This document shows positions 39,480 to 60,277 of a stretch of 61,464 nt of DNA, piece after piece. The notes beneath the pieces were generated by a model, which saw only the letters and a program-made list of their open reading frames with translations, did not search any database and was not told the DNA's origin. The translations under genes and the position numbers were made by a program. Positions within the stretch are counted from its first letter, which is position 1. Every line of letters begins with the position of its first letter. The DNA comes from Alcanivorax sp. 24 (lineage in GTDB: Bacteria; Pseudomonadota; Gammaproteobacteria; Pseudomonadales; Alcanivoracaceae), in assembly GCF_004360225.1 (NCBI RefSeq), contig NZ_SNUA01000022.1, positions 1 to 61,464 on the forward strand. The letters are read 5' to 3'.

Positions 39480-40799
39480 ATGTCCGAAAGCTACAGGGCG
39501 CCTCACCAGCCTCATATTCCGTACGCGCTATTAGCTGAAGAGTCGGAAGAAGAGCGGTTGATCTCGATCGAAGCGCTTGCCCAAGATCAAGTATTTGGGT
39601 TTCGGGTAAGAAATATGGCTCGAATCCAAAAGGCTAAAGGGGGCGATGACGCGGTCACGTTGCGCTGCCCGGTATGTTTTTCGGCGCTGCAGGTCCATTC
39701 CAAAAAGCTGAAGATGGGCGGTGATCATGTCCTCTATTTCTCTCACGCTCCGAATACGGCTAAGGGCTGCGATCTGGCCAGAGAGTCGGGGCTTGCAAGG
39801 GGTGTGATCGAGGCGCTGATCTATGATGGTGTTCGCGAAAGTGAAAAGCACAGAAAACTGAAGGAATGGGTCGCCAAGCTGGTTCACATCAGCCCAGGGC
39901 TGGAACTTGAGTCTCTTGATACGCGCTACGTGACTGGTGTTGGGAATGACGGTCGGAAACATCGCAGAAAGCCAGATGTCCTGCTCAAAAAGGGCGGCAA
40001 GAGGGTTGCGATAGAGCTTCAGGTAAGCCCTCTGTTTACCCAGGTTATCGCGGATCGGCATGTTGCCTACAGTGAGTTGGACATCCCATTGGTTTGGGTG
40101 GCGGAGAACTTTACGCCGGGAAGAGAGAGCGCCTTCCATAAAGACATCACCGAGCAGAATGGAGGCTTTATTTTCTCTCTGGACGATCAGGTAAGGTCAT
40201 TATCAGAAGAGAAAGGCCGGCTGTTTTTGAGGATGTGGCGGCGGCTCTATCTGCATCATAGGGATGGCTACTTTTGGAAACAGGCCCTGGTTGAACTGTC
40301 GGACCTGGATTTGCACCTGCTTCAGAGCGGAAGTGAGCAGTATTTCGATGTTCAAGCGGGGCTTTCAGTGGGGCTGTTGGCTCAGATTGAAGAGCGGATC
40401 ATTGAAGACAGCGAGCCGGGCGAGTTCGACTATGGGATATATCATTCAAGGCTGGAATCCTTGGGGATTGGAGATGTTGATAGCTACCATTCGCTAATAA
40501 AAATCCTGCTTTCTATTAGGGATGGTCGGGTGTATAGCCGCCAATCATGGAAGTGGCTGGCTAATCAGGCCTTGAATCACCAGGCTGAGCACATACGGCT
40601 CATCGCGTACGCAGCAAAGACGTATGATCGTGATGCTGACCTTTTTCCAAAGGGGGCGAAGCAGTACGCAAGACTTTCAGGTCTGTGGAGCGGGGCGCGG
40701 TCTTCGGTGTCCGAGCCGATGGTAAAACTGCTGCTGGCTCTTCTGCCTGAACTAAAGCCCTTGGAAGCCAAGGTTTTTTCTCGAAATGAGGCGGGTTAG
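39480..40799 (+). CDS. CoiA-like / DUF6035-type nuclease protein
   Basis: The 439-residue protein resembles CoiA-like competence nucleases and the DUF6035 group. An N-terminal Cys pair (LRCPVCFSAL) may bind zinc with the following His (YFSHAPN) and Cys. A nuclease core then reads RRKPDVLLKKGGKRVAIELQ, the D...ExQ arrangement of PD-(D/E)XK enzymes. The C-terminal half is helical. It lies on the opposite strand between two members of a conserved element block and has lower GC than both, so it is probably inserted cargo, perhaps for defence or DNA uptake control. Confidence 0.65.
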   Translation: MSESYRAPHQPHIPYALLAEESEEERLISIEALAQDQVFGFRVRNMARIQKAKGGDDAVTLRCPVCFSALQVHSKKLKMGGDHVLYFSHAPNTAKGCDLARESGLARGVIEALIYDGVRESEKHRKLKEWVAKLVHISPGLELESLDTRYVTGVGNDGRKHRRKPDVLLKKGGKRVAIELQVSPLFTQVIADRHVAYSELDIPLVWVAENFTPGRESAFHKDITEQNGGFIFSLDDQVRSLSEEKGRLFLRMWRRLYLHHRDGYFWKQALVELSDLDLHLLQSGSEQYFDVQAGLSVGLLAQIEERIIEDSEPGEFDYGIYHSRLESLGIGDVDSYHSLIKILLSIRDGRVYSRQSWKWLANQALNHQAEHIRLIAYAAKTYDRDADLFPKGAKQYARLSGLWSGARSSVSEPMVKLLLALLPELKPLEAKVFSRNEAG

Positions 40800-44480: not shown

Positions 44481-44922
44481 ACCGTCTCCATATTGGGGGA
44501 TGAGGGAAAGAGCAGGACAAGAAGCCACACCGGGGGCTCCGTCATGACGGTGGTATGTATCTGAAATTTGCTTGAGTAGAGGTGTTTGGCGCCCATTCTC
44601 ATTGTCATCCCGAATGAAATAGCTGGTTCCGTGGTGCTGGAATCCCCGTGGCGAGAGAGAATCCTTCGCATCGAATTGTGGAGCATCGTTCTTATCCATC
44701 CCGATTGTTTGTCGTCTGCTAATGGCATCGCTGGCCGGTGGCGGAACATGATTTGGCTCGGACGCGATAATGCGAGTATGGATGCTGGGGGCGACAGTTC
44801 CTGTCGCGAAGAAAGTGGGAGCTGTCGGACTGGCTCAAACCAACGTATGTGATAAAGTTCACACTCGTACAACGAAAAGCCCCGCGCCAGAAAGGCGCCG
44901 CCAGGCCGCGATTGGGGACGGC

Positions 44923-45545
44923 ATGGCAAAAAGGGACAGCAAAATGGAAAGCCGACACCACAACCTGAAAACCCGGCAGCGCCGGGAGCGTCACGGCTAC
45001 CCGGACAGTCTTTCCCTGCGTGTCCACTGCGCCTTTATCTGGCATATATGGGATGGCTTGTCCGGCGACTTCGCGGCCTCGGTCAACTACCACAAGCTGG
45101 ACCGCAAGAACCTGGAAACCCTGATCTACACCTACCTGGGCGACTGGATCAGCCGCCAAAAGCAGGACCTAGCCAGCGGCGTCGACGGCTCCGAAGAACG
45201 CCGGGCCGCCGCTGAATCCCTGAAGAAGAAACTGGAACAGATCCTCGAAGGCAAAGCCCCCTACGACATCTTCGTCCGCTGGAAGCCTATTGAACAGCAA
45301 TCCATAGGCTGGGACCCGGACCTCAACGACGGCGTCCGCCTCAACATCCGCCCCTTCATGACCGTAGGCGACGCCAAAAAAAAGGCGCTGGCATCCTGCG
45401 CGACAAACCCAACATCAAATGGACCAAAGACCGCGGTAAGGATGTGGAGTCAGCGCCCTGGTACCAAACCTTCAAAGGTGAGCGCATCAACGATTACCAT
45501 GTGACCCTAGTTGAGAAACGGACTGCTCGGGAGGCGGTCAAATGA
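44923..45545 (+). pseudogene. pglX: Chimeric remnant: HEPN-type N terminus fused to the BREX PglX C terminus, frameshifted
   Basis: Residues 1 to about 35 (MESRHHNLKTRQRRER, then DSLSLRVH) resemble the start of a HEPN-domain protein. From about 45030 the frame becomes the C-terminal end of BREX adenine methyltransferase PglX: IWDGLSGDF, LIYTYLGDWISRQ, PYDIFVRWKP, GWDPDLNDGVRLNIRPFM. A run of eight A at 45376-45383 shifts the frame. The correct frame then resumes as GAGILRDKPNIKWTKDRGK and ends at 45545. The methyltransferase core is absent, so this is a deletion scar. The stop overlaps the start of the next, intact gene by four bases. Confidence 0.75.
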
Positions 45546-46837
45546 GTACAGCTGTCAAGATCGCCAATTGGGTCAAGAAAAAGCCTATGATCTTGATTCG
45601 CCTCGATGAGGCGTTTTCTGAATCCCTGCACAATTCACGGCAGGGGTTTGAACATCTCACCATGGTTAAACCCCACTTCATCTTCCAGGTTGTCAAACTG
45701 CCAACGCCCTGCCTGCTTGAGGTTCACGACGACGATGCAACCAAGTGTTATCTAGCCACAGTCACCCGTAAAACTGCGGTTAGTACATTTGACTCACGAA
45801 TAACCCTCAAGAAACTTAGAGTGTTGAAACCCGACTCAATTGAGAGTTTGGAGAGCTTGGTTGCCGACTCTCGAATGAAGCGCTTACTGAGGGACCGTCT
45901 TCCAGATGAGGGGGGAGTTACAAATCTTTCGCCCAAACTCAGCGCACACTTAGTCGAACTCTTGGCTGCTGATTACCGGAATCAGACTGCGCTGGATACA
46001 GCTCTCTCCCTTTTGCCAGGTTTGAGGCGTGTAACTAACACCACCTGGGCACAGGAAGATGCCATTAAGTCCGCAATGGTCGCTTTTGGAATCCGGAGCA
46101 GTGCCTTGCCGGATCAGTTAATCCTGAAGAGAGGTGCATCATCTGGCCTCGGTCTAATCGGAGCTCACCTCTACGAGGATAACGTGGTGCATTCAGATGC
46201 ATCGCGTCTGCCTGGGTTCGACGCTGTTTCCACTGACGTGACAGGGCGAGCTGTCTTTAGAAAAGGAGATGAGCGGCTGGTAATTTACACCGCTAACAAA
46301 CTGCCCTTGGAACAAATGCTTGGCGTTGATCTCATCTATATTAACGAAACCCTGGGCAACATAGTGATGGTCCAGTACAAGATGCTGGAAGAAGACAAAA
46401 AGGATAAAGACAACCGTGATTGGATATTTCGGCCTAACCAGCAATTGCGCGATGAAATCGCCCGGATGCAGCTCCCCAACTTGGCAGGTCCTTTCAGTGA
46501 CTACAGGCTGAGTCGTAACCCATTTTTCTTCAAGTTTGTGAAGCGAAAGGTCATAGAAGATACTCACCAGTCGTTTTTTGTCTCCCTTGATCATCTGAAC
46601 AAAATACTTGCGGCCCCTGAAGCCAGAGGCCCTATGGGCGGGGTTCGCCTCAGCTACGAAGCCCTGAATGGAACCTATCTCCGAGAAGCCGACATGCTTA
46701 GCTTGATTCGTTCCGGTTATGTTGGAACGCACAAGACCGAGACAGCGGCACTGGCAACAATCATTCAAGAGGTGGCTAAAGGGAACAAGGCCATAGTGCT
46801 GGCATGGCAGCAGAGAATTCAGGAGGAAGTAAGATGA
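45542..46837 (+). CDS. Predicted nuclease-like protein coupled to the pglX remnant
   Basis: I do not recognise a named family for this 431-residue protein. The segment MLGVDLIYINETLGNIVMVQ continues into YK, giving D263 and Q278-x-K280. This is the D...QxK arrangement of Mrr-like PD-(D/E)XK nucleases, and E212 upstream could be the helix Glu. The N-terminal 130 residues may be a beta-rich domain. The ATG overlaps the pglX stop (ATGA), and the next gene overlaps its own stop, so it was built into the BREX operon. GC is lower than in flanking blocks. Confidence 0.6.
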   Translation: MSTAVKIANWVKKKPMILIRLDEAFSESLHNSRQGFEHLTMVKPHFIFQVVKLPTPCLLEVHDDDATKCYLATVTRKTAVSTFDSRITLKKLRVLKPDSIESLESLVADSRMKRLLRDRLPDEGGVTNLSPKLSAHLVELLAADYRNQTALDTALSLLPGLRRVTNTTWAQEDAIKSAMVAFGIRSSALPDQLILKRGASSGLGLIGAHLYEDNVVHSDASRLPGFDAVSTDVTGRAVFRKGDERLVIYTANKLPLEQMLGVDLIYINETLGNIVMVQYKMLEEDKKDKDNRDWIFRPNQQLRDEIARMQLPNLAGPFSDYRLSRNPFFFKFVKRKVIEDTHQSFFVSLDHLNKILAAPEARGPMGGVRLSYEALNGTYLREADMLSLIRSGYVGTHKTETAALATIIQEVAKGNKAIVLAWQQRIQEEVR

Positions 46838-47814
46838 GCAAGCGGATTCGACGTGTTGGTTCCATTAAGGGCGAACTCTTAAAAAAATCTCGAGAGGCTG
46901 CTCTTGCTGCTGTGCAAATTTTCAACAACCCGAATATCAGCTTCAAGTCGGAATCCTATGTGGTTCTGATGATTATTGCTTGGACGTATCTTCTCCATGC
47001 TTATTTCAGGGATCAGAAAATTGAGTATCGATATTACCAGCAGAGAGGACAGCGGCGTGAATTCGACAAAACCAAACATGGTGCTTACAAGTACTGGGAG
47101 CTTGAGCGCTGCCTGAATGATGCCGATTCTCCATTGGATAAAGACACGTCTAATAACCTGCGTTTTTTGATCGGATTGCGTCACGAAATCGAGCATCAGA
47201 TGACAACACGGATAGACGATGTATTAAGCGCGCGCTTTCAGGCATGTGGGCTTAACTATAATGAATACATAAAACAACTGTTTGGAACTGACAAAGGAGT
47301 CGAAAGACATCTTTCTTTTAGTCTGCAGTTTTCAACGATATCTACTGAGCAAAAAGAGTTGTTGGAAGATCAGCCGGGATTGCCTTCAAATATACAGAGT
47401 TACATTCAGAGCTTTGATTTGGGGTTGTCAGATGAAGAGTTTTCTAATCCCCGCTATGCATATAGGATTCTGTTCGTCCCTAAAACGGCAAATCGTAAAG
47501 GGCAAGCTGATCGTGTTATCGAGTTTGTTAAAAGTAACTCTCCTCTAGCAGAGACTATTAATAAAGAATACGCAGTAATTAAAGAAACTGAAAGAATGAA
47601 GTACCTGCCAAAACAAGTTGTGGACTTGATGAAAGATCAAGGTTATTACAAGTTTTCACTTCATAATCACACAGAATTATGGAAGCAACTTGATGCGAAG
47701 AATCCAGCCAAAGGATACGGTGCTTTGGTGGCAGGAAAATATTGGCATTGGTATGAGCGCTGGGTTGAAGTTGTAAGACAGCATTGTCAGGAGAATCGGG
47801 ATAAGTATTCGTGA
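46834..47814 (+). CDS. DUF3644 family HEPN-like protein
   Basis: The 326-residue product matches DUF3644: a start rich in basic residues (LLKKSREAALAAVQIFNNP), then SFKSESYVVLMIIAWTYLLH. The segment LRHEIEHQ gives the Rx4H motif (R116-H121) typical of HEPN ribonucleases. Such proteins occur in defence loci, and RNA cleavage is a reasonable but unproven activity. AGGAGG precedes the ATG, which overlaps the stop of the predicted nuclease gene by four bases. Confidence 0.75.
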   Translation: MSKRIRRVGSIKGELLKKSREAALAAVQIFNNPNISFKSESYVVLMIIAWTYLLHAYFRDQKIEYRYYQQRGQRREFDKTKHGAYKYWELERCLNDADSPLDKDTSNNLRFLIGLRHEIEHQMTTRIDDVLSARFQACGLNYNEYIKQLFGTDKGVERHLSFSLQFSTISTEQKELLEDQPGLPSNIQSYIQSFDLGLSDEEFSNPRYAYRILFVPKTANRKGQADRVIEFVKSNSPLAETINKEYAVIKETERMKYLPKQVVDLMKDQGYYKFSLHNHTELWKQLDAKNPAKGYGALVAGKYWHWYERWVEVVRQHCQENRDKYS

Positions 47815-47921
47815 CCAGAACCCAAATCTTAAAAGGGCTCTGCGTAGCATCATCAGCGGTGATTAGATAAATGACAGCCATCTGATTTTGGTTGAAGAAA
47901 GGTTTGTATAGGAGAATATAG

Positions 47922-50900
47922 GTGAGCAAGCTGAGCAATCCCTTTTCAACAGGCGGAGGAGGACTGCATTTTGAGGCGCAGGTGCAGGCCTCGTTCGTTG
48001 CTCTAATGCTGACCGGTGGATTCGCGCCCAGTTTACCGTGCTGGCCCATTAGTGAAATCAAGCTGCAAGGCAAGATCGATGGGTATGATACCGATGACTT
48101 GATCGTCTACGTTAAGAATACAGACCTCAAAGAGCGAAGAAAGCTTATTGGTCAAGTAAAGCACGCTATCTCAGTGACCAAGCGGGATGCTGTTTTCGGA
48201 GAGGTCATTCAGTCCGCTTGGAATGACTTTAATAATCCGGCCACGTTTTCACAGAATAAAGACGTAATTGCATTAATAACTGGCCCTTTGAATGGGGTCG
48301 ACGCCAAGAATGTTCCTTGGCTTTTGAATCAAGCAAGACATACAAAAAACGTTGACGAATTCCTCAGAAACGTAAAGCAAGCTAACTTTAGTCCATCCAA
48401 AAGCGTTGAAAAGCTAGAGGCCATTAAGCATCATTTGAAGGTTGCAAATGGCGGGACTGATGTTAGAGAAGCGGATTTATATAGCTTTCTACGGCACTTC
48501 CACTTGTTGGGCTATGACCTAGGCGGTGAAGCGGGAGTAATCATATCACTGCTTCACTCTCATATTTCACAGTTCCACCCTCAATATCCCCATTGGCTCT
48601 GGTCTCGGCTTGTAGATATCGTTCAGTCCTGGAATCAGGATGCGGGAACCATCACACACAACAACTTGCCAGAAGATGTCATAGATGCGTTCAAGCAAAA
48701 GGTCGTTACCGAAGTGCCCGAGCGGCTTAGGGCAAGCAGGGAGACTCATGAGGCAAACTGGGAGCAACATCCGGACGCGTCTTATATAGCGCTCGCTACT
48801 CTTATTGGTTCTTGGAATGAGAACCAAGAGTGCGACGTACGTACGCTGACTGCATTGCTCGGCATAGATTACGACGACTGGATTAAGAAAGCGCGCGAAA
48901 TACTCCATCAATCAGGTAGTCCATTGTCCCTTAAGAACGGAGTTTGGAACGTTCTCAATCGATCAGAGCTCTGGCGGCAACTCGGCTCTCGAATTCTCGA
49001 TCAAAACTTGAATATTTTTAAAGAACTGGCTGTATCCATTCTTAAGGAGTCAGACCCAGCTTTCGAACTGCCTTCAGATGAACGCTACGCTGCCAGAGTT
49101 CACGGGAAAGTTCCGAATTGGTCCCCAGCGATTCGGCAGGGCGTTGCTGAAGGGCTAGCGATCCTTGGGGCTCTGCCAGAGTATTGTAACAATTGCTCTC
49201 AGGGAAATGCTGAAATCACTGCCGTTCTCGCTATTCGGGAGATCTTTGACGGAGCTGACTGGCGCCTGTGGGGTAGCCTTAACAACCTTCTCCCCTCGCT
49301 GGCCGAAGCAGCACCCAGGGAGTTTCTTGAGGCGGTTCAAAGAGCCCTTCGGCTGGAGCCCAGCCCTTTTGATGAACTCTTTGCGCAGGAGGGCAACGGC
49401 TTCAATGGGAGCAACTACATGACAGGGTTGCTTTGGGCTTTGGAGGGCTTGGCTTGGGAGGAACAGTTTCTCGTTCCCGTATGTGATCTACTTGCTGAGT
49501 TGGCAAGTCATGACCCCGGGGGCCAATGGGCAAACCGTCCTGGAAATTCATTGACGGATATTTTGCTTCCCTGGATGCCGCATACTCTTGCGAGCATTGA
49601 AAAGCGCAAAGTGGCGGTACAGACCGTTCTCAGTGAATGGCCAGATGTCGGCTGGAACCTGCTCCTAAGCCTATTACCCAATCAACATCAGACTACTAGC
49701 GGCACCCACAAGCCAAAATGGAGGGAAGCCATCCCGGACGATTGGGAAAAAGGGGTCACTACGAACGAGTATTGGCAGCAAACCTCGACCTATGCAGAGC
49801 TTGTGGTGAGTGCCGCGGGACAGGATGTTGGAAAGCTTTCCGATTTGATCGATCGCTTTGAGAGCCTGACAAAGCCTGCTTTCGATCAACTCATAGAAAC
49901 TCTTTCTTCAGACGCCATTAAAGGCCTTCCAGAGGAGCAGAAGCAGTCTCTGTGGCGTCGACTCAGCAAGTTCACTAAAAAGCACAGGCGCCACGCTGAC
50001 GCTAAATGGGCTTTGCCTAACGAATTGATAGCGCCAATTGAGGTGGCCATGGAAGGACTGGCCCCAACCGATCCGTTTCTTTTATACGCAGAACTGTTTT
50101 CCGGTCGGGACTTCGATCTCTATGAGGAATCTGGAAACTGGAAAGAGCAGCGCATAAAGCTCGATGAGCGGCGAACATCAGTTGTCCAAAAAATTACGGA
50201 ACAATATGGCATCGATGGAGCAATTCGGTTTGCCGAATCAGTTACATCACCTCGCGATTTTGGCGCCGCGTTGGCTGCCATAGCGACACCAGAGATTGAG
50301 AAAACACTGTTGCCGGATTTCTTGGATTCGGAGAACGAAAAGCACTTGGATGTGGTGAGTGCCTTTATATGGCGTCGCCGTCATGATGAGGGTTGGGCTT
50401 GGTGCGACAGATTAAATAGAGCGGAATGGAGCCACAGACAAATAGGACAATTTCTGGCTTGTTTGCCTTTCACTCGAGATGCTTGGGAGCGAGTAGGCCA
50501 GTGGCTCGGCAAACATGAGGGTCAGTACTGGAATCGGGCAAGTGCTTTTCCCTACGAGGCCGAGGAAGATATTGGATATGCCATTGATAAGCTACTCGAA
50601 TACGGGCGGCCACACGCTGCCATAAACTGTCTGGAAAGAATGCTGCACTCGAAGAATACAATTGATCCAAGTCAGTGCGTACGTGCTCTTCTTGGAGCAC
50701 TGAAATCCAGCGAGCCAAACCATGCCATGGATAGTTATCACATGGTTGAGCTAATAAAGCACTTACAGTCGGATAGCTCCGTTAGTGATGATGACCTTTT
50801 CAGAGTTGAATGGGCTTATTTGCCATTACTTAATCAACTCGATGGGAACAAACCTGTTTTTCTACATCGGAAATTGGCCAATGAGCCTGATTTTTTCTGC

Positions 50901-51455
50901 GAAGTGATTCAACTTATTTACCGTTCGAACAAAGAGGGAGACAAAGCCGAAGAGCCTTCTGATGAACAAAAGGCTATAGCCACCAACGCCTACCGATTGC
51001 TCAGTGAGTGGACTAGACCGCCTGGACTTAGGGATGACGGAACGTTTGATTCTGGGCACTTAAAAGGTTGGCTTCAAAGGGTTAGAGAGGTCTGTATAGA
51101 GACAGGTCATTTGGAAGTTGCACTTATCAACATTGGCGAAGCCTTAATTTATTCACCTGCCGATGAAGATGGTTTATGGATCAACAAAACCGTGGCTGGA
51201 GCGCTGAATGATCGCTACTCGGACGAGATGCGTGATGGTTTCAGAACCGCTTTGTACAACTCTCGCGGTGTTCACACGGTTGACCCATCCGGTAAGCCGG
51301 AAATGGATCTAGCTGAGAAGTACGGGAAGAAGGCCGAGGATGCTGAGAACGCAGGCTTCCACAGGTTAGCAGTGACCTTGCGGGGCTTATCAGAAAGCTA
51401 TGTCAGGGAGGCAGAGTGGGTGAGGTCAGATTTTGGAAAGGATAACGATGAATGA
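47922..51455 (+). CDS. Giant nuclease-helical repeat protein, candidate phage sensor-effector
   Basis: The 1177-residue protein starts with GTG after taggaga. Its first 180 residues look like a PD-(D/E)XK nuclease: FSTGGGGLHFEAQVQASF with E18, IDGYDTDDLIVYV with D59, and LIGQVKHA with Q78-x-K80. The remainder appears helical and repeat-like, including WANRPGNSLTDILLPWMP, a phrase I associate with large STAND-type (Avs-like) proteins. I see no Walker A motif, so an ATPase domain seems to be lacking. The 107-bp gap after the HEPN gene has no terminator. It is the last gene of the intact trio. Confidence 0.65.
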   Translation: MSKLSNPFSTGGGGLHFEAQVQASFVALMLTGGFAPSLPCWPISEIKLQGKIDGYDTDDLIVYVKNTDLKERRKLIGQVKHAISVTKRDAVFGEVIQSAWNDFNNPATFSQNKDVIALITGPLNGVDAKNVPWLLNQARHTKNVDEFLRNVKQANFSPSKSVEKLEAIKHHLKVANGGTDVREADLYSFLRHFHLLGYDLGGEAGVIISLLHSHISQFHPQYPHWLWSRLVDIVQSWNQDAGTITHNNLPEDVIDAFKQKVVTEVPERLRASRETHEANWEQHPDASYIALATLIGSWNENQECDVRTLTALLGIDYDDWIKKAREILHQSGSPLSLKNGVWNVLNRSELWRQLGSRILDQNLNIFKELAVSILKESDPAFELPSDERYAARVHGKVPNWSPAIRQGVAEGLAILGALPEYCNNCSQGNAEITAVLAIREIFDGADWRLWGSLNNLLPSLAEAAPREFLEAVQRALRLEPSPFDELFAQEGNGFNGSNYMTGLLWALEGLAWEEQFLVPVCDLLAELASHDPGGQWANRPGNSLTDILLPWMPHTLASIEKRKVAVQTVLSEWPDVGWNLLLSLLPNQHQTTSGTHKPKWREAIPDDWEKGVTTNEYWQQTSTYAELVVSAAGQDVGKLSDLIDRFESLTKPAFDQLIETLSSDAIKGLPEEQKQSLWRRLSKFTKKHRRHADAKWALPNELIAPIEVAMEGLAPTDPFLLYAELFSGRDFDLYEESGNWKEQRIKLDERRTSVVQKITEQYGIDGAIRFAESVTSPRDFGAALAAIATPEIEKTLLPDFLDSENEKHLDVVSAFIWRRRHDEGWAWCDRLNRAEWSHRQIGQFLACLPFTRDAWERVGQWLGKHEGQYWNRASAFPYEAEEDIGYAIDKLLEYGRPHAAINCLERMLHSKNTIDPSQCVRALLGALKSSEPNHAMDSYHMVELIKHLQSDSSVSDDDLFRVEWAYLPLLNQLDGNKPVFLHRKLANEPDFFCEVIQLIYRSNKEGDKAEEPSDEQKAIATNAYRLLSEWTRPPGLRDDGTFDSGHLKGWLQRVREVCIETGHLEVALINIGEALIYSPADEDGLWINKTVAGALNDRYSDEMRDGFRTALYNSRGVHTVDPSGKPEMDLAEKYGKKAEDAENAGFHRLAVTLRGLSESYVREAEWVRSDFGKDNDE

Positions 51456-51539
51456 TAACCACTGCTAATCCGGGGCCTTACAAGTGAAAGTGGTCGATAC
51501 CTTGTTAAAGGTTATCCGAGACGTCGCCATATTTAACCC

Positions 51540-51971
51540 AGACATCCAGGTAGCCCTGCCAGCGTCCTCTAGCAGACCGTGACCTCCACTGGCACGGCGG
51601 TGGTTGCACCGGTCCGGGATAAAATTCGGGGGGAAGATGGCAGCGCGGATTTCGGGTCCGCCGTGGCAGCGACCGGCCAGTCCCTGAAAGGCGGTTATCA
51701 CCTCAAGAAACGGCTGGAGGACGTCAGCTGGACGCTGCTGGGTAAAATAGAGGAGAGCCAGGGGAAGGTTTCGACTAGTGTGAGTCTGGTGACATTGACG
51801 ATGAAGGCCACGACCGTGACTGGAAGCGAGTGTGCGTCGTTACCGATCACGGTTGGCCGCTTCTGCCCCGGGGGCTCCCCAAAGTTGACTTGCCCAGCGT
51901 ACTGGCTGAGAGCAAATGGGTTCGCTGCGGCGTGCCCAAAGCCGGTGAGGAAATCCAGGAGCGATTGTTCC
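51540..51971 (+). pseudogene. pglZ: Decayed BREX phosphatase gene pglZ (type B-like)
   Basis: Two frames hold fragments of one protein. From 51579 one frame reads TAVVAPVRDKIRGEDGSADF and SLKGGYHLKKRLED. From about 51782 another reads ESGDIDDEGHDRDWKRVCVV, TDHGWPLLPRGLPKVDLP and VLAESKWVRCG. The VVTDHGW...LPKVDLP block is what I know from PglZ. Residues seem to be deleted between GHDR and WKRV. The frame is cut at 51971 where an IS66 end begins. In BREX type 1 pglZ follows pglX, as it does here with three genes between. Confidence 0.6.
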
Positions 51972-52841
51972 GTAAGCGTCCGGCAGTCACATCTTGTTAG
52001 TGATGACCGGTTGTCAGTTGTGCGGCAGGAGTTCGCCAATGGGCATCGGCAGCCGGTTAAGCACGTCCTTCAGATGGGCGTAAGGATCGTGGCCGTTCAG
52101 CTTTGCCGATTGGACCAGGCTCATCACGCTGGCCGCTGTGTAGGAAACCGGCGAACAGCCAGTTATTGCGCCCCAGTCGCCCAGGGCCGGATCCGGTTTT
52201 CCACCTGGTTGTTGTCGATCGGCACCGCCCCATCATCCAGGTAGCGCATCTGCGCCGTCCAGCGTTTCAGGCTGTAATCCAATGCTCTGGCAGTACCCGA
52301 ACCGCCCGGCACCTTCTGCCGTTGCAAGATCATCCATTGGTACAGGGCTTGGGCAATGGGCCGGGCTTGTTCGTCGCGTAGACGCTGTCGGTCTTGATCC
52401 GGGAAGTCCTTGAGTTCCCTTTCGATGCCGTTTCACGCCCGGATGGCCAACTTGCTCTTGCTGGCCGCATGTAGGTCGTGGAAATTGCGCCGCGCGTAGA
52501 CCTGGCACTGATGGGCCTGCTTATCAGGCCATTCCTCGACGCGAGAGCCGTCTGAGCGAGCCACTTCAATGCGGATGTGGTCGTGTCGATCCCCGGGTCG
52601 GGGCCTTGTGAGCGACGCCGATGCTGAAGTGGGCGACACCGCCAAGGGCACTAAGACCGGCGATACCTCATTACAGGTTTGCTGCGCTTCCCGAATCCAT
52701 CACTGGACCAGATTGGCGTTGAGTTGATTGTCCAGGGCAATCTGGGACGTGGACATGCCATGTGGCCACGATGTGGGCCTTGAACTCACGGGAAAAGTGA
52801 CGGCGACGTTGGCGCTGGTTTTGGGGTTGAGGTACGCTTAC
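51972..52841 (-). mobile_element. IS66-family element remnant
   Basis: Both ends carry the IS66-type terminus: GTAAGCGTCC at 51972 and its inverted counterpart ending ...ACGCTTAC at 52841. Inside, minus-strand fragments of transposase genes appear in several frames: REFKAHIVA (TnpA-like), EEWPDKQAHQCQVYARRN, RYLDDGAVPIDNNQVENR and the C-terminal LPMPIGELLPHN. The 870 bp is far shorter than a full IS66 (about 2.5 kb). No matching 8-bp target duplication is seen (attgttcc left, tacgaagc right). The stretch 52842-53024 shows nothing recognisable. Confidence 0.8.
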
Positions 52842-53024: not shown

Positions 53025-53819
53025 CTAGTTTTCGTCTAATTCTGACCTTATGAGGGCGGTTTCATCTTCCCACCAAACCAAAGAGAGAACGGAGCCTCTC
53101 CCAACTCGCACGGAATCCTCAACAACCACATAGTGTTCGACACCAGCATGATTGACCCATTCATCCGCATCCACAGTGGTGGGGCCTGGGGAAGCTATAC
53201 TGGCATCCACTCGGAGGCTATGAGCTACTGAATTCCTGCCAATCAGTCTGTTAACGCGTATTGAAAGAGGTATGTCGGGATGCCTCCAGCTCCAACGGTA
53301 TCCTCCGTTGTTCGAGCAGACAACAATTGCAGGAAAGCTACCCAGTTCAACCAAGCGTATCGCAGCTGCGGTCAAACTGACTCGAAATTGCCTTCCTAGG
53401 GCGGAGGCGTTGGCCATGGTGGCAGCCATGCCTCGAGCTGCTTCTTTGAAAAGGTAAGTAGGCATCAATAGCTCAACCGCAAACCGATTTGCGGCCGCTT
53501 CTCTGTCACCCTTATAGTCCTTAAGTTTAAACGGCGTCAGGTCCTTGGAGCGGCAACTGACGGAAACTTGCCCATGATCTTGAGCCCAATGCCCCAATTC
53601 GTGAGCGATTGAGAATCTCTGTCGCTCAATTGATGCATCTTGATCAACCGTGATGATAGCCTTGTTGCCCTTCCCTACGATTCGAGCAGCACAGCTGGTC
53701 AGCTCTCTGTACTTAACTCGTACGCCACAGAAGTACGCCATGACTTCTATATCAACGTCGTCAGGGCTCAGGATTCCCATCTCCTGCCAGAGCCTTTCTG
53801 GCGTAATATTTCGCCTCAT
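53025..53819 (-). CDS. ImmA/IrrE family metallopeptidase
   Basis: The 264-residue protein has the gluzincin-type motif in RFSIAHELGHWAQDH (H73, E74, H77) and later zinc-ligand candidates in the YKGDREAAANRFAVELLMP stretch. ImmA-type peptidases cleave phage or ICE repressors, and IrrE-type proteins act in DNA-damage responses. Its ATG shares a base with the stop of the preceding gene. It ends a three-gene operon with a sigma-like factor. Its 3' end contains one copy of a 17-bp repeat that recurs upstream of the operon. Confidence 0.88.
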   Translation of the reverse strand: MRRNITPERLWQEMGILSPDDVDIEVMAYFCGVRVKYRELTSCAARIVGKGNKAIITVDQDASIERQRFSIAHELGHWAQDHGQVSVSCRSKDLTPFKLKDYKGDREAAANRFAVELLMPTYLFKEAARGMAATMANASALGRQFRVSLTAAAIRLVELGSFPAIVVCSNNGGYRWSWRHPDIPLSIRVNRLIGRNSVAHSLRVDASIASPGPTTVDADEWVNHAGVEHYVVVEDSVRVGRGSVLSLVWWEDETALIRSELDEN

Positions 53820-54238
53820 CAGCTGTCACCTTCGCCGTTTAGCTCGGCGAGATCTTCCAATATACCGGCGATTTCTTCGTCGGATAAATCGGAGGGGTCA
53901 TCCAACTCTCTGAAAGCCAGAGTTGCTGAATCTGACCAGCGATGCCCACCGGTCAGTATTAGGGTGAGCAACGAGCGCCGCTCTTCCGCCGTTCTTGGCA
54001 AGCTCGACTCTCTAATAATGAATTTCTCTTTATCCAACGCGTCTCTCGTAGCTTCATAAGGCGTAACGTTGACGTCGCCGACTGAATGCCGGATAAGATT
54101 TCTCACAATACTGCTTGTCTGGTCCGCATCCGCACCAAACTCCCGCATAATCATTTTATCTGACATTTCGGCAGTTTCATCTGACAGTGCATCCAAGACA
54201 GCATGCCAGCGTTCTAGATCGCTTCGAGCTCCCGTCAT
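53819..54238 (-). CDS. Unknown protein between sigma-like factor and ImmA/IrrE peptidase
   Basis: The 139-residue product is acidic and helical (DALSDETAEMSDKMIMREFGA, then ELDDPSDLSDEEIAGILEDL). No domain is recognised. Its start overlaps the sigma-like gene by four bases, and its stop shares one base with the peptidase start, so all three are tightly coupled. By position it could be an anti-sigma factor or repressor cleaved by the peptidase. That is an inference only. Confidence 0.6.
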   Translation of the reverse strand: MTGARSDLERWHAVLDALSDETAEMSDKMIMREFGADADQTSSIVRNLIRHSVGDVNVTPYEATRDALDKEKFIIRESSLPRTAEERRSLLTLILTGGHRWSDSATLAFRELDDPSDLSDEEIAGILEDLAELNGEGDS

Positions 54239-54813
54239 GGTGCGTTCTCCTCGGCAATTAACCTGCTGACGACACGGCGGAGTCTTTTTCGCGCAGAGTC
54301 GTACTGATTCTGAGACATGTGGAACTGGGATTGGGTTTCACTAGCTGTCAAGCCCTCGCCGAGGGCAAGTGCTAGCGCCTGTGCATGCGGGTCATTAGCG
54401 AGCTTGCTTGCGACCTTCTCAAGCATCTCATGCGCGTACACCTCATCGGCTGGATCAGAGTTTGTGCCGGCTTCTGTAGTGAAATCACCGGCATCCGGAT
54501 TTCCAGACGGATCTACTTCAACAGTCACCTCATGTTGGCTAACAAGGACCGCGTGTTTGGCTTTGGATGAGACGATGCTGCCAAAGACCATCCGCATAAA
54601 AGTCGCTGTTTCAACGCCTCTTGGCCACCGTCTGACACCTGAGATCACTCGGTCGAGCCCTTCAGCTAGTAAATCGTCAGGGTCGCAATCTCGAAGCTTA
54701 TGTGCCTGGAGCTCCGCTATGCGTCTTAGCCGTAGGAGGTCCGCTTTCAACAGACATGATAGCTTGGCGTTCACCTCGTTCGTGCTGAGATAGTCTTCCT
54801 CACTACGCGTCAT
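54235..54813 (-). CDS. Sigma-70-like transcription factor
   Basis: The 192-residue protein has the layout of an ECF-like sigma factor. A region-2-like part reads CDPDDLLAEGLDRVISGVRR, a linker follows, and a region-4-like helix-turn-helix reads GLTASETQSQFHMSQNQYDS with RKRLRRVV. The first part is divergent, so it may be an accessory regulator rather than a full sigma factor. It heads a minus-strand operon with an unknown protein and an ImmA/IrrE peptidase. Confidence 0.65.
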   Translation of the reverse strand: MTRSEEDYLSTNEVNAKLSCLLKADLLRLRRIAELQAHKLRDCDPDDLLAEGLDRVISGVRRWPRGVETATFMRMVFGSIVSSKAKHAVLVSQHEVTVEVDPSGNPDAGDFTTEAGTNSDPADEVYAHEMLEKVASKLANDPHAQALALALGEGLTASETQSQFHMSQNQYDSARKRLRRVVSRLIAEENAP

Positions 54814-55859: not shown

Positions 55860-56400
55860 GCAGTGATGAAAACCGGACAATCTAAATTGATGGAATGCGG
55901 TCAAACCGCGCTGACGTTGACATGCCCAAGCGCCCAGATCCGGATTTGGTCTTCCGCCCAGTTGTTTGTCGATCGGCACCGCACCATTGTCCAGGTGGCG
56001 CGTCAGCACCGCCCAGAGTTTCAGGCTATGGTCCAACGCCTTGACCCGTCCGGGACTTTTTGCCGTCGCGCGATCATCCATTGGTGCAGGATGCCGGCTA
56101 TGGGCTGGGCCTTTTCGTGTCAGTACCGCTGCCGGTCTTAGTCGGGCAGGTCCTTGAGGTCGCGTTCGATGCTATACAGCGCGTGGGCGGCCAGCTCACT
56201 CCTGTTGGCCAGGTGCAGCTCGTGGAACTTACGATGAGTGAGGGGCAGGCAGCCGATTTCAGTGATGCCCTCGCCGAAGCCCGCCTTGTAGCCAGCGTAA
56301 TCGTTATACACCAGCTTGCCCGTTACCAAGACAAATTTCTACCATGGTGGTTTTGCCGTCTGTGTTCAGATGCTGATTTAATGGGCTTGTCTGGACTTTA
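55860..56400 (-). mobile_element. Second IS66-family transposase remnant
   Basis: Minus-strand fragments in several frames correspond to the same transposase region as in the 51972-52841 remnant: VYNDYAGYKAGFGEGITEIG, KFHELHLANRSELAAHALYS, IERDLKDLPD, then QWMIARRQKVP. Stops and shifts interrupt it. No clear GTAAGCG terminus was found, so the ends are approximate. The rest of the gap 55490-56452 contains nothing I can identify. Confidence 0.75.
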
Positions 56401-56452: not shown

Positions 56453-57115
56453 TCAGGTTCTGTGCTGAATTGGTCTGACGTAGTGATTGTGGAGCTCTGC
56501 GAAAAGGTGTGTGAGCATGGGAAGGTTGTTAACGCAATCCGTTGCTAACTCCTCTGTAGCCTGCCATGCCGAACCCGTGTGCATAAAGTCGTTCCGCACC
56601 TCAGACGCTATTATCATCAGCTCTGAAACCGCGACGAAACTACAGCCTTCGGTCGAGACTTCTTCTACCGCGACACGCCATTTTGAGCCGACGACGGACT
56701 TGAAAAGTTGCCCGAAACGTTGGTTGGCCAGCTTGTTGTCGCTGAGCAGCCGGTCGATTATTCCTTGTGGCAACTGTTGGGCCTCCATGTGTTCTTTAAG
56801 GAACTGAACCAGAAGAGCCTCCCGTAGAGCACAGAAGAATACGATTGTTCCAACAGCGCCCGTTTGCGGGCCATGAATTGGGCCGACAGGGGCATTTGAG
56901 TGATAGGCCTGATGAACGAGGTCGACTAGAATGTGGATAGTCACCGGGAAGTATAGGCGCCCGCTTTCACTAGGTAGCCCGCAAGACTTACACGCGTTAC
57001 CGGGCCGCATACGCTGCATGTCGCGGTCCACCACTCCGCAATGCCCGCATAAGAACCAAGGGCATGCAAGCAGGCTCGCGTCTTGATCTTTGATTAATGC
57101 AAGAGAGGTTTCCAT
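56453..57115 (-). CDS. Zinc-ribbon plus HEPN-like protein
   Basis: The 220-residue protein has a zinc ribbon (CGHC at 23-26 and CKSC at 42-45) followed by a helical domain with SEVRNDFMHTG. This gives the Rx4H motif R174-H179 of HEPN proteins. It has no signal or membrane segment. It is the last of five same-strand genes of similar low GC. RNA cleavage or binding as a defence activity is an inference from the motif and neighbours. Confidence 0.6.
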   Translation of the reverse strand: METSLALIKDQDASLLACPWFLCGHCGVVDRDMQRMRPGNACKSCGLPSESGRLYFPVTIHILVDLVHQAYHSNAPVGPIHGPQTGAVGTIVFFCALREALLVQFLKEHMEAQQLPQGIIDRLLSDNKLANQRFGQLFKSVVGSKWRVAVEEVSTEGCSFVAVSELMIIASEVRNDFMHTGSAWQATEELATDCVNNLPMLTHLFAELHNHYVRPIQHRT

Positions 57116-57196
57116 AGACTTTAATGCTTGCAGAATGCGTGTTGTTGGAATGGCTGTGAAGCCGTCATGGAAAAAGTATCTCCGTGCCTTCGATGA

Positions 57197-57997
57197 TTAG
57201 GCATGTGTTCCCTCCAAGTGCATCGGGGTATTATTTAAAATAACGCTTCCTATATCCGGTCTTTCTTTCATCAATATTTTGGAAAATACACTTTGAAAAA
57301 AAGGAGCAACCCAGTATTGAGAATTCTCTGGTGGGGTCACGCCGCACTCAAGATGATCTAGGTAGTCACTAGATGTCATGTAGTACTGGCAGATAGTACA
57401 AATGTAAGACAAGTGAAGAATGAATATAGATCTTACATCTTCCGACAGCTCATCTAAAGAGCTAGCTCTGTCTTTCAAATAGATGTCCCTGTCGTTAAGA
57501 AGAACATTTTGAAAATAGTTGTAATGCGTGTGGTTGTTGCAGCGTTTCCTGATTTTTCTGTATGAATCGTCGATATATAGAAGGTCGTTTATTTCTTTAA
57601 GATCCCTGCTATTCCTTATGTACTGTGACATTATCCTGTATTCTGGGATTCGCTCCTTTCCATGCAGCCAGTTATTGACTTTTTCTACTATGTGGTTCTC
57701 GATATCTCGATGGTCCCTGAGATATAAATTTGAGTAGGCGTTTATAATGACTGAATCAAAATACTTCCTGATTAGGCTATAGCAATCATTGATTCTTCCT
57801 TTTTCAAGAAGAACCCTTATCGAATCAACCGTTCCCTGGATTGACGAGTACACGTAAGTATCCATACTTACGAAAGCCGTAATGCCTATGGCGGCGAAAC
57901 TCATGACGGACATGGACAAGCTATGATAAAAATCAATATACTTATCCAGCTCGGAAAACACCTTATGCCCGCGATACTGTTCGTCACTCACCATCAT
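57197..57997 (-). CDS. Helical protein with HEPN-like motif, unknown
   Basis: This 266-residue AT-rich gene encodes a mostly helical protein. An early hydrophobic stretch (SLSMSVMSFAAIGITAFVSM) could be a buried helix or a membrane segment. IRKRCNNHTHYNYF supplies an R-x5-H spacing (R152-H158) that would fit the looser HEPN pattern. The fit is weaker than in the two neighbours. It lies 23 bases after the 213-residue HEPN-like gene on the same strand. The function is unknown. Confidence 0.5.
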   Translation of the reverse strand: MMVSDEQYRGHKVFSELDKYIDFYHSLSMSVMSFAAIGITAFVSMDTYVYSSIQGTVDSIRVLLEKGRINDCYSLIRKYFDSVIINAYSNLYLRDHRDIENHIVEKVNNWLHGKERIPEYRIMSQYIRNSRDLKEINDLLYIDDSYRKIRKRCNNHTHYNYFQNVLLNDRDIYLKDRASSLDELSEDVRSIFILHLSYICTICQYYMTSSDYLDHLECGVTPPENSQYWVAPFFQSVFSKILMKERPDIGSVILNNTPMHLEGTHA

Positions 57998-58020
57998 ATA
58001 AAAGCTACTCTTTCTTGAGC

Positions 58021-58662
58021 CTAACGCCAGTCGCAGCTTTTTAGGCCGCCCCCGTGACCTTTAAGAAATGCCTCTCTATCTTCTTCAGGAATCTGCTCAG
58101 CCAAAAACTTAACTCGATGCTGAAATAGTCTATTGAATTCGCGGCATAACCAGTAAAATGCGACAGTGTGACAATGCATGTCTTCATCTGTGACCTGAAT
58201 ATCATAGTACGTTCTTGGATGGGTGAGACGGTTCCGGGCGTCTTTTGCCTGAAGAAAATCTCGATAGCTTTCGCCTCCAGCATCAAGTTGGAATTCAGCT
58301 AGGCCCCAAGTCTTGGCCGCAAGCTTAAATGTAAGCTTGAGGTTGTCTTCTAGGGGCAGGAACTTCTGATCCCTGGGTCCAGGAGTAATAGAAAGGCCAC
58401 CTAGAACGCCTAGCTCTTTCTGGGATAGACGATCTTTACCGCCCTCCAGTCTAAGAGTTGAGCGTATCTCTGACTTTATGATTTCCGCCGAAGCTTCTAT
58501 AAGGGCAAATATTGCTCGAACGGTTGTCCGACGCAGGAACTGAGAATCTCTCCGTTCTTCCAGCACCTTATAAGCGCGCGTGACATCCGCTTGCAACTCC
58601 TCGAAGAGCTCGTAGGTTCGAACAAGGCCCTCTTTTTTGCTGATGTCTGGTTTGGTTGGCAA
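58021..58662 (-). CDS. HEPN-like protein
   Basis: The 213-residue product has an N-terminal helical part (YELFEELQADVTRAYKVLEE), a central helix IFALIEASAEIIKSEI and the motif KDARNRLTHPRTY, a clear Rx4H (R143-H148) followed by the Pro often seen in HEPN domains. It contains no other domain. The gene is 23 bases upstream of the 266-residue gene and 123 bases downstream of the 183-residue gene. It is a candidate ribonuclease toxin or defence effector. Confidence 0.65.
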   Translation of the reverse strand: MPTKPDISKKEGLVRTYELFEELQADVTRAYKVLEERRDSQFLRRTTVRAIFALIEASAEIIKSEIRSTLRLEGGKDRLSQKELGVLGGLSITPGPRDQKFLPLEDNLKLTFKLAAKTWGLAEFQLDAGGESYRDFLQAKDARNRLTHPRTYYDIQVTDEDMHCHTVAFYWLCREFNRLFQHRVKFLAEQIPEEDREAFLKGHGGGLKSCDWR

Positions 58663-58785
58663 AGATTCCCTCTTTGGTTACTAAAACGCGGTTACAGCAT
58701 CAAAGTGTAGCTGGCACTTTGATGACATCTACCACAAGAAATCTCAGCGAAACGGAGGTCGCACATGAGACGATTGTTAGCTGAC

Positions 58786-59337
58786 TTAATTATTATTACG
58801 ACGCTTAAACTCGTGCAGCTCCCATTGAGCAATACTTTTTCCTCGTTTCTTTGCTATGTTTTCCAAGGATATAACTGCAGATTTATACTCTTCAATGCAG
58901 TCACTTTTGATCCAATCATAGCTGAAAGATGGATCACATATCTTTGCTTTATCTCGGATTATACCATCAATCGGGCAATGAGGAGGCTCGCTAATCAAAT
59001 TCGAACACCAAAGATACTTTAAATGCATATTAATTAGCTTTTGGGTAATACCAATTCTAAATCTATCTCCCTTTAAATATTTGCCTATCTTATCGGTAAG
59101 TTTTTTTGCTGTATTCTCAATGTGCTTAGCGTGATCCTCAGGAAACAATACAGGCGAGTACATGATCTCAATTTCGTCTAGCACTTCGCGAATAGCCTCC
59201 TTCGCAGGGGTTCGCTGATGCGACTTTATCGTTTCCTTATATACTGTAAATTCTTTATCTCTGGTTGATAGCGCAGCCTTTATAGTTAAAAGCCCGAGCT
59301 CGTAACTTATGAATCTATTTTTATGTTCAGACGGCAC
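58786..59337 (-). CDS. Helical protein of unknown function
   Basis: The 183-residue protein resembles hypothetical proteins I have seen on phages and islands with the phrase KLINMHLKYLWCSNL followed by PPHCPIDGII. A late WELHEFKRR ends the protein. There is no known domain name or catalytic motif. It lies between the TIR gene (64 bases upstream) and the HEPN-like gene on the same strand. Confidence 0.55.
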   Translation of the reverse strand: MPSEHKNRFISYELGLLTIKAALSTRDKEFTVYKETIKSHQRTPAKEAIREVLDEIEIMYSPVLFPEDHAKHIENTAKKLTDKIGKYLKGDRFRIGITQKLINMHLKYLWCSNLISEPPHCPIDGIIRDKAKICDPSFSYDWIKSDCIEEYKSAVISLENIAKKRGKSIAQWELHEFKRRNNN

Positions 59338-59401: not shown

Positions 59402-60277
59402 TTACATTCCATAGTATTTTGAACTAAATCCAACTGTAAGCGGCGCGCCATCATAAAGGCACGAGACACTAACCTTGATCTGTCTTCTGTGGTCATAGTA
59501 GGTGTGGCAATGAGTTTTCTTCCTCTTCAAATCAAGTTCCGGTAACCCAATGCTTAAAGAGCCAAGAACCGGTTCTGAATCAAATTCTTGATTTAGATTG
59601 TGTGGAGCAGTGGATTTCAGATCAATCTCTACATAGCTAATAAAATTTCCTTCAGCCTCGAGAAGCATCCTGCAATTATCATTCTCCACAATAATGTTGC
59701 CTACGGCGTTCGCTGTGGCCCCAACCTCGGTTTCAGCTTTATGGATAGGCATTCCCATATATTGAAATGGCCTATGAAAAGGCTTGGGCATTAAGGGTAA
59801 GCTTTTTAAAAAGGCTTTATCTAGCGCAGTGCCAAGATTGTTTGGGATTATTTCAGAATTCATGACGCTCTTATTGAAGACCAAACCGATACTGTTAATG
59901 AGCTTTCTGAATGAATCTTCGTACTGATCGTCGATCCGGAAATCGCCATACACTTTCCCAACAAGGAAGCCCGGTGGCTCACACTCTTTGAGCAAGATTG
60001 GAAGAATCTTTATAGGTTTTCCATTGATCTGATGATTCATGGCAACATCAAGCTCGTTGACAACCCAGGGTGCCTCAACAGAATTAGGAGACAGAATGAC
60101 GGCAAAGAAATCTACAGAATCAATACCTTCTCGTATCTTCTGTATCAATGAGTCACCTATTTTCATTTCCGCTTCATCAAGCCAATAACGAACACCATGA
60201 CTTTCCAAGTCTCTCGCAAGCGTTCTCACAAAACTCTTGTCTTCATGGTTGTGGCTTAAAAAAACGCTTATCGTCAT
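59402..60277 (-). CDS. TIR-domain protein
   Basis: The 291-residue protein has an N-terminal TIR domain of about 125 residues: ISVFLSHNHEDKSFVRTLAR, then YWLDEAEMKIGDSL, FFAVILSPNSVEAPWVV. The candidate catalytic Glu of NAD-cleaving TIRs is E75 in VVNELDVAM. The C-terminal 150 residues are beta-rich and unrecognised; they may sense a trigger. Bacterial TIR proteins deplete NAD or make cyclic ADP-ribose signals on phage infection. It heads a minus-strand series of HEPN-like genes. Confidence 0.85.
   Translation of the reverse strand: MTISVFLSHNHEDKSFVRTLARDLESHGVRYWLDEAEMKIGDSLIQKIREGIDSVDFFAVILSPNSVEAPWVVNELDVAMNHQINGKPIKILPILLKECEPPGFLVGKVYGDFRIDDQYEDSFRKLINSIGLVFNKSVMNSEIIPNNLGTALDKAFLKSLPLMPKPFHRPFQYMGMPIHKAETEVGATANAVGNIIVENDNCRMLLEAEGNFISYVEIDLKSTAPHNLNQEFDSEPVLGSLSIGLPELDLKRKKTHCHTYYDHRRQIKVSVSCLYDGAPLTVGFSSKYYGM

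Follow-up and report, generated by a model that had tools for sequence, protein, structure and literature searches.

Two probably independent candidate defence cassettes stacked in the remains of a type 1 BREX operon of Alcanivorax sp. 24

The window analysed here is the whole 61,464-nt stretch of contig NZ_SNUA01000022.1 from Alcanivorax sp. 24, whose source assembly comprises 4.76 Mb in 99 contigs. At 45542-51455 of the forward strand, the open reading frame (ORF) map contains three open frames, flanked upstream by a relic of pglX and downstream by one of pglZ, the remains of a type 1 bacteriophage exclusion (BREX) operon. The features of this locus, in order, are:

45025..45545, + strand: pglX relic (BREX type 1 methyltransferase), C-terminal ~170 residues in two frames
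45542..46837, + strand: gene 1, N431, 431 residues, putative PD-(D/E)XK nuclease with a ~200-residue N-terminal region
46834..47814, + strand: gene 2, DUF3644 HEPN protein (PADLOC PDC-S19), 326 residues
47849..47902, + strand: candidate scar, a decayed copy of the PglX C-terminal tail with one internal stop, between the two cassettes proposed below
47922..51455, + strand: gene 3, 1177 residues, GTG start, nuclease-like N-terminal domain and phrog_18693 body
51484..51970, + strand: pglZ relic, N-terminal 24 residues, then residues ~484-644 in two frames

We read this locus, with a probability of about 0.7, as the cargo slot of a defunct type 1 BREX operon holding two independent, stacked defence cassettes that stayed intact while the operon decayed. 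Cassette 1 is probably N431 together with DUF3644, and cassette 2 is probably gene 3. The basis of this reading is visible in the sequences themselves: the separate occurrence of the two units, the slot, the scars within it, the conserved motifs of the guest genes and the absence of relaxation in those genes.

A preliminary description of this DNA had placed three intact frames on one strand between a broken pglX and a broken pglZ, and the ORF map and the PADLOC-matched relic pieces agree with it. The pglX relic (PADLOC PglX, 2e-63) survives as pieces at 45025-45369 and 45387-45542 in different frames, with one frameshift between about 45369 and 45411. Most of pglZ is absent (PADLOC PglZ, 5e-6), the remainder being marked by stops, a 25-residue deletion and the loss of the middle of the gene. 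Searches of all 99 contigs with PglX and PglZ returned the window relics and no other pglX or pglZ, so that the intact pair expected of a working BREX type 1 system was not found; brxA, brxB, brxC and brxL were not searched genome-wide. The description had also joined all the genes by four-base overlaps. Such ATGA overlaps are indeed present between pglX and gene 1 (45542-45545) and between gene 1 and gene 2 (46834-46837), but genes 2 and 3 are separated by a gap of 107 bp (47815-47921) with no overlap. Gene 2 has 326 residues when read from the ATG that overlaps gene 1 and 336 if the earlier ATG at 46804 is used.

Searches of Pfam, PADLOC and NCBIfam (E up to 0.05) and of PHROG (0.01) gave no match for N431. 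One scan of 84,980 species genomes yielded 28 N431 loci (L015-L042), among which L030 and L031 are the same in ORF map and match values and L036 and L037 are near-duplicates. The alignment comprises 27 proteins, from 26 of the 28 loci (without L031 and L037) and the window, any Pfam match being confined to a single member. Residues E257, D263, Q278 and K280 are invariant in all 27, and the 46 columns without variation among the other 26 are all retained in the window protein. The PD-(D/E)XK signature consists of a conserved acidic residue and a (D/E/Q)-x-K motif, and N431, which carries both, is on this motif a putative PD-(D/E)XK nuclease. A profile search of PDB sequences with N431 returned no nuclease, and relatives sought by sequence in the PDB for genes 1-3 were none of them convincing. 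Shedu (SduA) proteins have an N-terminal region and a C-terminal nuclease, and N431 is of similar size and domain order. Membership of Shedu was nevertheless rejected, with no SduA_C match in any of the 27 proteins and an hhalign probability of 0.3% against four SduA proteins; variable N-terminal modules are reported for Shedu in the accessible part of a recent survey (Rakesh and Krishnan 2026, PMC12839542). None of four candidate stretches in viral contigs was confirmed as N431, and among 143 relatives the family was found in the window's own genome only.

Gene 2 belongs to DUF3644 (Pfam, 3e-59) and matches PADLOC PDC-S19 over nearly its whole length (2e-170). PDC-S19 is a single-gene phage defence candidate, the S presumably standing for single gene, whereas in the window DUF3644 forms the second half of a coupled pair with N431. 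Both residues of the HEPN R-x4-6-H motif, R116 and H121, are invariant in nine of nine aligned DUF3644 proteins, and the window protein keeps all 77 columns invariant in the eight others, a retention that, like that of N431, bears out the view that the conservation of these guests exceeds chance. The residue pairs D263/K280, R116/H121 and, in gene 3, D59/K80 are all present as the preliminary description gave them. Its word 'undescribed' suits N431, which has no library model, but not DUF3644, which is a PADLOC candidate and was placed in the HEPN superfamily by Anantharaman et al. in 2013 (PMC3710099).

N431 and DUF3644 are adjacent and in the same order in four of the 28 N431 loci (L015, L017, L019 and L020), each time between PglX and PglZ of an intact BREX operon, and the four-base coupling to PglX seen in the window recurs in L017 and L020. 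This setting bears on a rival explanation in which the two proteins serve BREX as auxiliary or back-up nucleases that its proteins set off, and persist here as idle passengers still awaiting decay. The coupling and the four intact loci are what it would predict, and the recent survey describes PD-(D/E)XK and HEPN nucleases within BREX core loci, the types proposed for cassette 1, as a general pattern and presents BREX as recruiting auxiliary and back-up nucleases (PMC12839542); its main text contains neither 'DUF3644' nor 'recombination'. We regard this explanation as unlikely, because both families also occur elsewhere and because the pglX relic shows signs of relaxation and the guests show none. 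N431 lies downstream of an HsdS-like gene in three loci (identified by Pfam and PADLOC in L021 and by resemblance to the L021 gene in L016 and L018), with HsdM preceding that gene in L016, and downstream of GajA/GajB-like genes in five (L026 and L027 tested directly; L028, L040 and L035 assigned by clustering). A GajA-cluster gene is found downstream of N431 in L029 and a cytosine-methyltransferase-like gene upstream of it in L022. DUF3644 without N431 is present in 27 plasmid records, with none among the ten N431 plasmid records, and in three viral contigs.

The divergence of the window guests from their nearest relatives at codon position 3 is high (0.43-0.54), and relative-rate tests were used instead. 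The pglX relic, compared over 164 codons with the intact pglX of L106 as sister, shows an excess of changes at positions 1+2 of +0.026 (interval +0.002 to +0.051). The corresponding excess is +0.005 for N431 (sister L015), -0.011 or -0.003 for DUF3644 (L019 or L015) and +0.007 or +0.005 for gene 3 (L067 or L070), and all of these intervals span zero. The contrast between relic and DUF3644 is significant (bootstrap P 0.009 and 0.031); a comparison of N431 with L019 as sister (excess -0.059, contrast P 0.0) was left out because the L019 protein is more diverged. Moreover, several lesions have accumulated in the relic of about 1 kb and no frame lesion in the 5.8 kb of the guests. Since constraint appears relaxed in the relic and not in the guests, and the guest frames are free of lesions, the guests have likely been retained by selection and are likely still functional, the tests being of modest strength. 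The earlier claim that the guests outlast their host is thus upheld, at modest significance.

It might still be argued that BREX died so recently that the open guest frames carry no meaning and that everything at the locus is decaying alike. Between the relic and the closest pglX, that of L106, 10% of residues differ in piece A and 19% in piece B, and the modest strength of the rate tests leaves such an account some room. It is set against the uneven distribution of lesions, the complete retention of conserved columns in N431 and DUF3644 and the restriction of the positions 1+2 excess to the relic, and we hold it to be a little less probable than a role for the pair as BREX auxiliaries.

Gene 3 is of a different kind. 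Its residues 281-1165 match phrog_18693 (6.5e-116), a family without an assigned function, and this body of ~890 residues is preceded by a nuclease-like head (about residues 1-258) with D59 and Q78-V-K80. A Shewanella plasmid protein is 48% identical to gene 3 over its full length and six viral-contig proteins are 59-60% identical, all with the same type of head, and neither N431 nor DUF3644 was found in the DNA examined around these seven copies or elsewhere on the Shewanella plasmid. No record of a phage collection matched gene 3 at 1e-5. Of 5426 E. coli genomes, 8 contain the L067 copy, seven of them with at least 80% coverage. On the Shewanella plasmid, pSBAL11702, a DUF6035 gene precedes the gene-3 homologue, and the window also encodes a DUF6035/CoiA-nuclease protein, at 39480-40799 (+).

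The heads of gene-3 bodies vary, with a weak DUF4145 head under the Pfam cut-off in L015, helix-turn-helix heads above the cut-off in L053 and L055, and no head recognised in L008, L051, L056 and L057. Conversely, heads of the window type (~250 residues, 23-30% identity) form the N-termini of the larger proteins L060-L062, which match PADLOC PDC-M54A; L060 also matches Avs4, and its NACHT/nSTAND matches are sub-threshold. The resemblance of gene 3 to such Avs-like proteins lies in these N-terminal ~250 residues, whereas its body is phrog_18693 and no NTPase domain was recognised in it (no Pfam match at E 0.05), for which reason Avs/STAND membership was rejected. PD-Lambda-4 A was likewise rejected for gene 3 (no match at 0.05); partial matches to it (3e-4 to 9e-4) occur in the relatives L008, L054 and L055. 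We read gene 3 as a putative one-gene effector-sensor protein.

In the 398 genomes searched within the phylum, 6 carry N431, 7 carry DUF3644 and 17 carry gene 3, 6 of these 17 being matched by the head only; the window's genome is counted each time and is the sole genome in two of the three lists. Plasmid records matching the three number 10, 27 and 38, respectively, and among the matches listed (10 of 10, 27 of 27 and 30 of 38) no accession is common to the lists. The gene-3 body is present in one of the 28 N431 loci, L015, where it ends about 2.6 kb upstream of N431. Neither the 398-genome searches nor the 28 N431 loci therefore revealed a conserved three-gene module, and the three-gene order of the preliminary description did not recur in them: the only locus with all three families has them in another order, with scars between them and with a gene-3 N-terminus different from that of the window. 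The recurring unit is very probably genes 1 and 2, as in the four intact BREX loci, with gene 3 a separate unit that has its own PglX-tail scar. That the three genes nonetheless constitute a true nuclease-HEPN-sensor system, in which gene 3 senses phage and genes 1 and 2 execute, accords with their contiguity on one strand, their intactness beside relics and the meeting of the three families in the L015 slot, but is very improbable given the genome and plasmid lists, the viral and plasmid copies of gene 3 that lack the other two, the scar that parts it from gene 2 and the differing order and N-terminus in L015.

The position between pglX and pglZ was taken in the preliminary description to be a site where BREX loci carry extra genes, and a sample chosen on PglX supports this. 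The sample comprises 14 loci in 13 genomes, namely the 5 with the strongest matches among 28 other genomes and, from a set of 12 other genomes, those not yet included. Both borders are visible in 11 of the loci; ten of these carry 1.2-9.8 kb between PglX and PglZ and one carries 18 bp. None of the 14 loci contains N431, DUF3644 or gene 3 (both strands, E 1e-3). In nine of the ten occupied slots, one or more of the subset of genes tested match a PADLOC model or the BrxU of L019, and the matches include Ppl, HEC-01, PDC-S02, BrxU-like Orf5/HEC-06, PtuA/PtuB and HerA; the single tested slot ORF of L136 matches neither the PADLOC models nor the L019 BrxU. The window guests, for their part, look defence-related, as had been proposed.

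Copies of the ends of core genes were seen inside a few loci. The L015 slot holds three cargos, namely the gene-3 body with its DUF4145-like head, a HEC-02 pair and N431-DUF3644, and these are parted by two copies of a 491-bp repeat (97%). The repeat combines the opening 201 bp of pglZ (90-91%) and 82-93 bp from the end of pglX (82-88%) with some 200 bp of other sequence. A 120-bp copy of its own pglZ start (89%) lies between two cargos in L135. In the type I restriction-modification (RM) locus L016, N431 and DUF3644 are both present but not adjacent: N431 is immediately followed by a 70-bp stub of the 5' end of DUF3644 and then by a DSR2 gene, and the full-length DUF3644 is preceded by a 43-bp copy of the HsdS tail. 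The DSR2 gene between N431 and DUF3644 is itself full-length (L016:9364-13092, PADLOC score 1664). In the window, the candidate PglX-tail copy in the gap before gene 3 scores 51; 2000 dinucleotide shuffles (mean 23) and 1515 further 107-bp stretches sampled on the + strand of the contig all fall below this value. Because this gap reads as a PglX tail, gene 3 probably arrived with its own pglX end. The pglX-pglZ position looks like a recombinational cargo slot, for which homologous recombination through the pglX 3' and pglZ 5' ends would be the simplest route.

PglX-tail-like matches in L131 and L132 were weak, did not rise above shuffles and were dropped. A search of plasmids with the chimeric L015 scar gave PglZ-like heads only, in five records, none covering 80% of the scar. 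Two further repeats were seen. A copy of the brxL 3' end (157 bp, 88%) lies downstream of brxL at L017:16015-16170, as if cargo can land there too, and a 95-bp perfect direct repeat (L110:1537-1631 and 1907-2001) lies within pglX of L110, near its frame change.

Several findings weigh against the reading of two independent, stacked and still constrained cassettes. The N431-DUF3644 pair is not obligatory, because 23 of the 28 N431 loci are without DUF3644 in the DNA examined, which for L018, L021 and L025 amounts to only 4-6 kb. L015 (1 of 28) holds all three families in one slot, which leaves room for some connection of the gene-3 body with cassette 1. The window scar lies only narrowly above the best shuffle (51 versus 49), and a plain tblastn search gives it an E value of just 4.5, so that the scar call depends on place as well as score. 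Copies of a locus's own PglX tail or PglZ head are clear in only two of 14 occupied slots (L015 and L135; 60 shuffles). The relic contrast stays above 0.05 with N431 (L015, 0.083) and with gene 3 (0.109 and 0.086), and it is drawn from 164 codons. Finally, the ratio of changes at positions 1+2 to those at position 3 is, for the relic, 8:1 among window-only and 1:2 among sister-only changes (Fisher P 0.13); for N431 the two ratios are 25:7 and 18:11 (Fisher P 0.26); N431 itself thus leans slightly in the direction of the relic, and change counts alone are indecisive.

For the two cassettes we propose mechanisms that we rate at slightly less than even odds; the nuclease and RNase activities, the trigger, the partnership of the two proteins and the recombination route are all inferred. 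In cassette 1, translationally coupled to pglX and internally, N431 would cut DNA in the manner of a restriction enzyme, riding on BREX methylation, type I RM or comparable host systems. Its partner DUF3644 would be a HEPN RNase serving as a back-up that halts translation if the attack on DNA fails. In cassette 2, the phrog_18693 body may sense a product of infection and thereby free the N-terminal nuclease. Homologous recombination at the pglX 3' and pglZ 5' ends would have brought in and stacked both cassettes, leaving scars between cargos.

Repeats also flank the decayed operon:

44809..45025, + strand: segment repeated elsewhere in the genome, 217 bp, 94% match on contig C8
52043..52300, no strand assigned: repeated stretch, copies on contigs C27 and C16, partly also at 55925-56039

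The 5' break of pglX, where homology begins at 45025, is the same point as the end of the C8 repeat, and the stretch at 52043-52300 resembles an IS66-type transposase relic. Further along the window, a TIR-domain protein is encoded at 59402-60277 (-) and matches PADLOC PDC-S66 (6e-24) and, under its cut-off, the NCBIfam retron-TIR model (5e-18). Beside it, at 56453-59337 (-), lie four small ORFs for which neither PADLOC nor NCBIfam gave a match, and together with the TIR gene they are possibly a second defence cluster. Three overlapping genes are found at 53025-54813 (-), one of them with an ImmA/IrrE-type M78 peptidase domain (6e-16).

Defence genes embedded in other defence operons are already known. 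Besides the BREX nucleases of PMC12839542, the accessible text of one report has BrxU, a GmrSD-type protein of pEFER, protecting alone from a gene between brxC and pglX (PMC8565348). BrxU resembles the present case as an independent nuclease gene within a BREX operon; it differs in its place in pEFER, and no similarity to genes 1-3 was seen. BrxU-like genes do occupy the pglX-pglZ slot in L019, L106, L110, L131, L134 and L135. In type I RM, the available portion of the RptR study describes DarTG2 as cargo between hsdS and hsdR, at what it calls a potential recombination hotspot (PMC12255303). The position of N431 after HsdS in L016, L018 and L021 is similar, whereas the cargo is different and no tail copies are mentioned in that portion of the account. 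Literature searches for DUF3644 with BREX and for PDC-S19 returned no papers, and neither the N431-DUF3644 pair nor tail/head scars turned up in any paper found, in searches without access to supplements or to most subscription papers and preprints; within the literature searched, the N431 family, the pair and the stacking scars look new.

Replacing the presumed three-protein machine by two separate units spares a misdirected experiment, and N431 adds a putative nuclease family that is without a model in the four libraries searched. More tentatively, and at longer odds than the mechanisms above, BREX and type I RM operons may hold an integrase-free recombinational slot to which cargo flanked by core-gene ends is added serially, leaving head-tail scars. 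An operon could in this way become an array of unrelated defence cassettes able to outlive their host, with N431 a new and widespread nuclease family that travels by this means. The scars offer a concrete and testable route for the growth of defence islands inside operons, with duplicated core-gene ends as landing sites. If this is general, scanning for copies of pglZ heads and pglX tails, or of hsdS tails, would reveal new embedded defence genes and order their arrivals.

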